Of a DNA stretch of 64,000 nucleotides, positions 20,319-22,827 are shown one piece after another. Positions within the stretch are counted from its first letter, which is position 1. Each line of letters opens with the position of its first letter. A program made the translations under genes and the position numbers. The notes beneath the pieces are model-generated. The model searched no databases and was not told the DNA's origin. It saw nothing but the letters and a program-made list of their open reading frames with translations. This DNA comes from Apophysomyces variabilis (Eukaryota; Mucoromycota; Mucoromycetes; Mucorales; Mucoraceae), in NCBI GenBank assembly GCA_002749535.1, contig MZZL01000380.1, positions 620,001 through 684,000 of the forward strand, written 5' to 3'.

Positions 20319-21637
20319 TTAAGCGAAAGCAGCAGCTACTTTTTGTTGCTGTTGTTGGTAGACTGGTGTCTGGATACCAGTTCGTTTCACCTTTTCGGCA
20401 CGGACGAGACCCAAGAAATCTTCGAAGAGATATTCTGTATCTTGAGGGCCACCCTTTGCTTCTGGATGGAATTGGACGGAGAAGATGGGTTTCGTTTTGT
20501 GTTGGATCCCTTCGTTGGAGCCATCGTTGGCATTAACGAACATGCGTTTCCAGTCTTTAGGCATGGCGCTGTCATCAAGGGCATAGCCATGGTTTTGGGA
20601 GGTGATGTAGCAGAGACCGGTATCGACGTGTAAGGCAGGTTGGTTGTGACCACGGTTGCCAAAGGGTAGCTTGTAGACGTTCAATCCGGCGGCCATACCG
20701 AGGAGTAGATTACCCATACAGATACCGAAAATCGGCTTGTTAAAGTGATCGATGGCGACCTTTAGGTTCTTGATTGTTTCAGTGCATGTCACTGGACTAC
20801 CGGGACCATTTGAAATGAAGAGACCATCGAACTGGTCAGCAACCTGGTTGAAGTCGAAATCATGTGGCAAAACGGTGACACTTGCTCCTCGCTTCGTCAG
20901 ACAACGCAAGATGTTTTGTTTCACACCACAGTCGATGACGGCGATCTTGACGTCACCGGAAGGATTGTATTGTATTGGCGTCTTGGTGGAGACCTTGGCA
21001 ACCAAGTGTTCGGCATTTGGATCAGGGAACTCGGTGATGCCATCATTTTCTCCGACGACGATCTGACTGAGGGTGGAACCTTGTTCACGAAGCAGATGGG
21101 TCAAAGCGCGTGTATCAATGCCTGTGATAGCTGGGACATCAAAGCGTTTGCACCATTCCCCGAGGGATTCGACAGCAGTCCAATGGGAGTACTGTGTAGC
21201 ATAATCATTGACAACGATGCCTGAGACTTGGATGCGGTCGGACTCAAAATATTTGTACAGACCAAATTCGTCTTTGACTTGACCTGGCACGCCATAGTTA
21301 CCTAAAAAGGGAAGAATGAATTTAAGAAACGGTAAAATGGTGAATACAGGAAAGGGAAAAAAAACCAAGATATCTTACCGATGAGGGGTTGAGTAAAGAC
21401 TAAGATCTGACCAGTATAAGAGGGATCGGTCATGGATTCAGGATAACCCACGAGCGAGGTAGTGAAGACGGCTTCACCAGCGACCGATTTCTCGGCACCG
21501 AAGGAAGTACCTTTGAAGATTTGACCTGATTTCAGCTTGAGAGCGGCAGCAGTAGAGGCAGCAGCGATGGTTGTAGAAAAGGTACGCTGATGCATACCAG
21601 CACGAAGAGCAGATTGGATAGATTTAGACAAGAGCAT
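20319..21637 (-). CDS. CPA1: Carbamoyl-phosphate synthase, arginine-specific small (glutaminase) subunit
   Basis: Two exons, 21637-21379 and 21301-20319, encode 413 residues. The Arg/Ser/Ala-rich N-terminus ([21 protein letters not shown]) looks like a mitochondrial targeting signal. The CarA N-domain follows ([23 protein letters not shown]). The class I glutamine amidotransferase domain starts near FISNGPGSP. The nucleophile Cys is in [15 protein letters not shown], and the His-Glu pair in [13 protein letters not shown]. The subunit takes ammonia from glutamine and passes it to the large subunit for carbamoyl phosphate in arginine synthesis. Canonical small subunits read GICLGHQ; here it is GICMGNL, as in the GNL stretch of urea-cycle-type CPS, while the catalytic triad is intact. 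A spliced attenuator uORF precedes the gene. The start is in a good context (A at -3). Confidence 0.93.
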
Positions 21638-21676
21638 TTTGTTTGTAATTGTGTGTTTGTTGTTTGATGGAGGGAT

Positions 21677-21817
21677 TTAAAAACTTCCAGAGGATTTCCA
21701 GACTAGAAAATGACAGAATTAAGTTTTGCATGCTCATGGCGCGCTTTTTCATCCAAGAGACTTACTGTGATCGCAAATATAATCGGCTGAGCACTTTTCG
21801 AAGGCGTGAATGTACAT
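21677..21817 (-). promoter_or_regulatory. Spliced upstream ORF encoding an arginine attenuator peptide (AAP)
   Basis: ATG at 21817-21815 opens exon 1 (21817-21766). A 63-nt intron (21765-21703, GTAAGT to TTTTCTAG) splits codon 18, and exon 2 (21702-21677) ends at TAA. The 25-residue product contains D12-Y-I-C-D-H-I-W19-K-S-S. Known fungal CPA1/arg-2 attenuator peptides carry D-Y-[LI]-S-D-H-[LI]-W-[RK] at the same place, and the yeast form continues with K-T-S-S. Asp12 and Trp19 fall at the same residue numbers as in the Neurospora peptide. With high arginine, such a nascent peptide stalls the ribosome at the uORF stop and blocks CPA1 translation. The uORF ATG is in a poor context (C at -3) and the CPA1 ATG, 39 nt after the uORF stop, in a good one. 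That is the arrangement needed for leaky scanning at low arginine. Confidence 0.88.
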
Positions 21818-22827
21818 AAGCGGACTTGACGTCTCTCTCTTAAGGGTTGTGTTTTGTTTGAATATGGATACAGAAGAGAAATAAAAAAGTTCTTTTTCTT
21901 TCTCTTTTGTTGCCTTGTTGTAGTTTGTTGCTTTAAAAAACTGAAAGAAAAGAGTTCAGAACAGAGAACAATGAGATGGGTTATATTTATAGTGGGAAAG
22001 GAAACTGGGACTGTTAGATTGAATGACACATCCTGACGACCTAGGGTTTGATAAGACGAAAAAGGAAAGGCCTCATCGTGAAAGTCCTTTTGATTGGCAC
22101 TCAGCCATACTTTGTTAACCGAAAAACCTAAGACCTTTTTTTTTCTTAATATTCTAGGAACCAGTCTTCTTCATTGGTTTGTCTTCTTATGGTAAAAAGG
22201 GAAAAAAATTAAAGAAAGCACAACTGAGATAGTGGGATAAGTTTGAAGATGAAAACCAAATCAATCAGTTTTCTTAAATAATATGATCATCCTCCAAAGA
22301 TCACGTCAGTAACCAGTCTATCTTCGCAAGAATTGTTTCTAATCCCAAAATGAAAGAAAAGAAAGGAAATGGGGGAGTTGTTTGATTTATGGGGGGAGAT
22401 ACACAAAGACAGAGAGAGATAGAGAGAGAAAGAGAGCAGTAGATAATGTATCATACTAAAACGGACAACATACAGAATTTTTTTTTCTTTTTCCCTTTTA
22501 TTTTCTTTGTCTGTATACATATATGTATATCTGAGTGTATGTGTGTATGTAAGAGAGAGAAGAAGAAGAAGAAGAAGGGGAAGGGGGAAAATGGTGAAGT
22601 AAGGCAGGTAGGAAAGGCAGGGGAGGAAAAGGAACCAGGCTCGGGATTTCCGAAATGATGTCCGGTGCATTGGGTTACCCACGCAAAGCGAGCCGAAAGA
22701 GAGATAAAGGTCCTCTTTTTTTTTTCATATGACATCAATGAGTGTGTATAGGCCCAAGTGAATACAAAACGGTAAAGAGAGACGAGACACCGTCGAGGAT
22801 AGTGTGTTCACATTCGATGCCATATAT

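Follow-up and report, generated by a model that had tools for sequence, protein, structure and literature searches.

A candidate arginine attenuator peptide ahead of CPA1 in a Mucorales fungus, completed by removal of a predicted leader intron

The stretch of DNA analysed here (64,000 nucleotides, hereafter the window) very probably carries a functional upstream open reading frame (uORF) for an arginine attenuator peptide (AAP) like those ahead of arg-2 and CPA1 in other fungi, with a coding sequence that would be completed by the routine removal of an intron. The fungus belongs to Mucorales and is a near relative of Apophysomyces ossiformis. The uORF is read from the minus strand in two exons. 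Exon 1 (21766..21817) holds codons 1–17 and the first base of codon 18 (MYIHAFEKCSADYICDH-) and is followed by a predicted intron of 63 nt (21703..21765, GTAAGT...TAG), placed in phase 1 in codon 18 and showing by eye a branch-like TTAAT about 16 nt from its 3' end. Exon 2 (21677..21702) supplies the remainder of codon 18, Trp19 to Phe25 and the stop codon TAA. The predicted join (21817-21766 plus 21702-21677) gives a uORF of 25 codons, MYIHAFEKCSADYICDHIWKSSGSF, in which Ile18 is re-formed across the junction and is followed by Trp19, Lys20, the residues SSGSF and the TAA, finishing at 21677; the ATG of CPA1 (21637) lies 39 nt beyond this stop. The unspliced uORF would be translated as MYIHAFEKCSADYICDHSKSLG, a peptide of 22 residues ended by a TGA at 21751-21749. 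Re-reading of the sequence returned the coordinates, the reading frame, the intron in codon 18 and the peptide given by the initial annotation, and likewise its Asp at position 12 and Trp at position 19 of the spliced translation. The premature stop it had predicted for the unspliced RNA, after four to five unrelated codons, is found after five foreign residues beyond His17.

In the spliced leader taken from position 22000 on, the ATG of the uORF is the sole ATG ahead of the CPA1 start. A TATA-like stretch (CTATAAATATAA, 21981..21992, minus strand), seen by eye, is a possible core promoter element. The context of the uORF start is CCGCTT-ATG-T, where position -3 is a C; that of the CPA1 start is AACAAA-ATG-C, where it is an A. 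Comparison at this position is a rule of thumb.

The spliced peptide passes the curated cut-off of the Pfam family PF08252 Leader_CPA1 (21.9 vs 18.5 bits, E 1.2e-4). Three further forms tried against Pfam, namely the unspliced 22-residue peptide, a stop-masked read-through and one scrambled peptide, gave no family match, so that the assignment to the attenuator family made in the initial annotation holds for the spliced form only. Its claim that the peptide is completed by splicing is borne out as well, Trp19 being present in the spliced frame only. At the level of single sequences, residues 9–21 align to residues 9–21 of the 24-residue AAP of Neurospora crassa arg-2 (PDB 2xl1), although this match is weak (E 0.39). 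Both peptides share S-x-D-Y-[IL]-x-D-H-[IL]-W-[KR] in this register, and Asp12 and Trp19, seven residues apart, align with Asp12 and Trp19 of 2xl1. In the same search of solved structures, three chains of squamous cell carcinoma antigen recognized by T-cells 3 rank above the AAP (E 0.14–0.28). Because these unrelated human chains outrank it, the case for an attenuator is built on profile, register and gene context. The mould peptide differs from the Neurospora AAP in having Cys15 in place of Ser, and may differ also in the predicted intron in codon 18.

The Trp of the attenuator core is a critical residue in known peptides of this kind. Residues 1–8 of the mould peptide differ from those of known attenuator peptides, and its N-terminal third is unrelated to that of the Neurospora AAP. 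The leader peptide of Saccharomyces cerevisiae CPA1 also has 25 codons, and its core has the same Ile and Lys as the mould peptide; its Trp is placed at position 20 and its uORF is not known to have an intron. The arg-2 leaders of some filamentous ascomycetes may be spliced. As here, the Neurospora arg-2 peptide is encoded by a short uORF ahead of the same gene, according to the portions of PMC9604717 and PMC11550727 available. The critical Asp is residue 13 in the yeast leader and residue 12 in the mould peptide, and in yeast the D13N substitution abolishes the response to arginine (PMC7969011, in the part available). The same portion of that source describes the yeast uORF start as lying in a poor context, with leaky scanning thought to underlie control; by the -3 rule of thumb, the C ahead of the mould uORF and the A ahead of its CPA1 are in line with this arrangement.

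The predicted intron was compared with other introns of this genome. The control comprised 22 homology-placed gaps between adjacent exon matches, 18 from chaperonin genes and 4 from kinesin genes (two in the window), short gaps hand-picked from the match lists and not the full set. Each gap allowed 2–15 possible solutions, of which the one closest to consensus was chosen; therefore this control is not independent. With boundaries leaning in this way towards consensus, the most frequent donor is GTAAGT (4 of 22), a YAG acceptor is found in 18 of 22 and the lengths span 44–115 nt. The uORF intron fits these introns in donor (GTAAGT), acceptor (TAG) and length (63 nt). By a homology-free donor profile, itself noisy, the uORF donor falls in the top 0.9% of 14494 GT sites. 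Two homology-free intron sets, one of 335 candidates and the other of 20 candidates with 4 consensus-like, were dropped as too noisy. The comparison supports the view that the uORF splice sites, as read from the DNA, are of the type common in this genome. With sites of this kind, we take ordinary constitutive splicing as the starting assumption and infer that the 63-nt intron would be removed, and constitutively so.

The probability that such a core arises by chance was addressed with shuffled leaders and with counts across the genome (38.7 Mb, 126 contigs). The 500-nt leader was shuffled 4000 times with its dinucleotides preserved, and when the shuffled versions were read as unspliced and once-spliced ORFs of 10–60 codons, neither DY..DH.W nor the looser D[YF]..D..W was found (0 of 4000 in each case); the bare D......W spacing appeared in 19 of 4000. 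The DNA pattern for D-Y-x-x-D-H, GAYTAYNTNNNNGAYCAY, has 20 matches in the genome, one of them with a stop within the core, and by itself this pattern shows no enrichment, since its backward control is commoner (62 matches). When a Trp two codons further on was required to be reachable by splicing (intron of 40–150 nt, donor GT[AG]N[GT]), one of the 20 matches was left, the uORF of the CPA1 leader. An unsplit attenuator core was found nowhere in the 38.7 Mb, and the genome pattern with Ile placed directly after the core had no match because codon 18 is split. For a similar reason, the division of the peptide by the intron, a six-frame Pfam search of the genome missed the uORF locus; it gave five matches, all below the cut-off, and a sub-threshold match was also seen in 1 of 14 control genomes. 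A second attenuator-like locus in the genome was set aside, the five profile matches all being below the cut-off. Chance origin of the core was likewise set aside on the shuffle and genome counts.

The gene downstream of the uORF is encoded on the minus strand in two exons separated by an intron of 77 nt (21302..21378, GTAAGA...TAG), across which the proteins of the two closest relatives, P0001 and P0002, read in the same frame. Exon 1 (21379..21637) encodes an N-terminus that by eye resembles a mitochondrial presequence, and exon 2 (20319..21301) the remaining part of the carbamoyl-phosphate synthase (CPSase) small subunit, the whole product having 413 residues. Exon 2 matches its homologues, Pfam CPSase_sm_chain and GATase, and, with 340 bits (cut-off 307), the small-subunit model TIGR01368. 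These matches, with the uORF 39 nt upstream, agree with the placement ahead of CPA1 proposed in the initial annotation. Among the best 120 of 7999 protein relatives, the closest is P0001 from Apophysomyces ossiformis (99% identity over 97% of the query) and the second is P0002 from Apophysomyces sp. BC1034 (89% identity). The ATG at 21637 is matched by the N-terminus of P0002, and in the P0001 model the protein starts from the following Met. Counted from the ATG common to P0002, the public A. ossiformis model lacks the first 14 residues, which would remove a portion of the presumed mitochondrial presequence, and its record name (CAD) fits the other CPSase enzyme too. Upstream of CPA1 and divergent from it lies a gene for a kinesin motor, interrupted by several short introns (plus strand, 23489 to about 24952), and the intergenic stretch between both genes is long, with many pyrimidine runs and simple repeats visible by eye.

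A genome search with the protein of CPA1 exon 2 gave two further related loci, on contigs C25 and C3. The C25 locus has CPSase small and large domains, with MGS and carbamoyltransferase domains downstream; by domain search these lie in two long frames (L035 487-7136, minus strand), and from this set of domains the locus is taken to be a CAD-type pyrimidine gene. The match on C3 is weak and by eye looks like an anthranilate synthase fusion. The CPA1 of the window is the sole free-standing CPSase small subunit found in the genome. A role for it as the pyrimidine enzyme was set aside, as the CAD-type gene stands separately, and by elimination, the remaining loci being CAD-type and anthranilate synthase-like, it is the arginine-specific small subunit.

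In the mechanism proposed here, routine removal of the 63-nt intron would complete the coding sequence of the attenuator. On the mature mRNA some of the scanning ribosomes would bypass the presumably weak start of the uORF and go on to the presumably strong one of CPA1. Those translating the uORF would, at high arginine, be arrested on its stop codon, an arrest in which D12-Y13...D16-H17-I18-W19-K20 would act from within the exit tunnel. The stalled ribosomes would then block those following them, and the mRNA would probably be exposed to nonsense-mediated decay. We infer the stalling, the arginine response and the decay from membership of the family. The attenuator-bearing mRNAs of yeast and Neurospora are subject to decay; in Cryptococcus, the orthologue of CPA1 has an AAP-encoding uORF with strong ribosome occupancy, its mRNA rising 5-fold in a upf1 mutant (both from the available part of PMC7049704).

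Against a working attenuator one may set a decayed or coincidental motif that no longer functions, to which the Cys at position 15 and the unrelated N-terminal third would lend some colour. This reading is very improbable given that D12, Y13, D16, H17 and W19 are kept in an intact frame with a close stop and at the right location, and that the shuffle and genome counts oppose chance. A different question is posed by the leader that retains the intron. Here a 42-codon ORF appears that exists in this form only (21624..21752, minus strand), with in-frame ATGs at 21752, 21737 and 21731, so that its length would be 35–42 codons depending on which of the three starts. The ATG at 21752 interlocks with the stop TGA of the truncated uORF as ATGA, and the frame leaves the intron, crosses exon 2 and ends at 21624, where it shares 14 nt with the beginning of CPA1. 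The ATGs at 21737 and 21731 have G and A at -3, respectively, which are fair contexts. Retention should disable the attenuator, since Asp12 is encoded in exon 1 and Trp19 in exon 2. From this loss the initial annotation had drawn an alternative-splicing switch for arginine control, in which retention would free CPA1 so that it is made at high arginine, and the failure of the unspliced peptide, devoid of Trp19, to match any family is in keeping with it. The proposal is scarcely credible in that form: the splice sites are of the common type and the frame of the additional uORF starts overlaps the CPA1 start, by which output of CPA1 should drop, not rise. Retained RNA should rather give little CPA1 at any arginine level. 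A second layer of control could be built on this, in which regulated retention, through the truncated uORF and the 42-codon overlapping uORF, would impose an off state independent of arginine. The frames, the ATGA and the 14 nt shared with the beginning of CPA1 can all be read from the sequence, and the contexts of the ATGs at 21737 and 21731 are adequate for it. Such a layer is nevertheless unlikely, as the donor and acceptor argue for efficient splicing and the intronic ATGs may be there by chance; in addition, intron-retained RNA is often held in the nucleus or decayed, which counts against it. There is an equally slight prospect that the Mucorales attenuator is a two-state leader, tuned by arginine when spliced and locked off by the ATGA-started uORF when retained, with splicing efficiency under stress deciding between both states. 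The preferred reading is the attenuator uORF completed by routine splicing.

For the origin of this attenuator, descent from a common fungal device has to be weighed against an independent origin in Mucorales. The latter finds a parallel in Toxoplasma gondii, where the uORF of ApiAT1 encodes an arginine-responsive peptide that resembles the AAP to some extent and has a critical Asp, which the authors discuss as possible convergence (PMC8370653, available portion). In that apicomplexan the gene under control encodes an arginine transporter, whereas the uORF described here precedes CPA1, and the mould peptide agrees with that of Neurospora in gene, place and register and is similar in length, which makes a separate origin decidedly unlikely. 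In the accessible parts of PMC7049704 and PMC11550727 the attenuator is placed in ascomycetes and in Cryptococcus, a basidiomycete. The early-diverging fungus foreseen in the initial annotation is confirmed as a member of Mucorales, nearest to Apophysomyces by its CPA1 protein relatives (best 120 of 7999). The deep placement in fungal history that the initial annotation drew from it is based here on a single species. No relative, and no fungal DNA beyond this genome, was found among 2 viral_contigs and 20 genome_contigs pattern matches, obtained with one Apophysomyces CPA1 query that reaches close relatives only. Among the titles and abstract openings listed and the passages covered, few of them from subscription papers, no report of an attenuator in Mucoromycota, or of an intron within one, was found; the 2007 Hood/Spevak/Sachs survey may deal with either subject or both.

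The arrangement described here indicates that the two key residues of an attenuator can lie on either side of a leader intron, and because they are separated in this way, uORF surveys of unspliced genomic DNA can miss such peptides. As one mucoralean case, it suggests that the device predates Dikarya, and that a well-studied arrest peptide was in use before the Dikarya split, an origin that is testable through the CPA1 leaders of early lineages.
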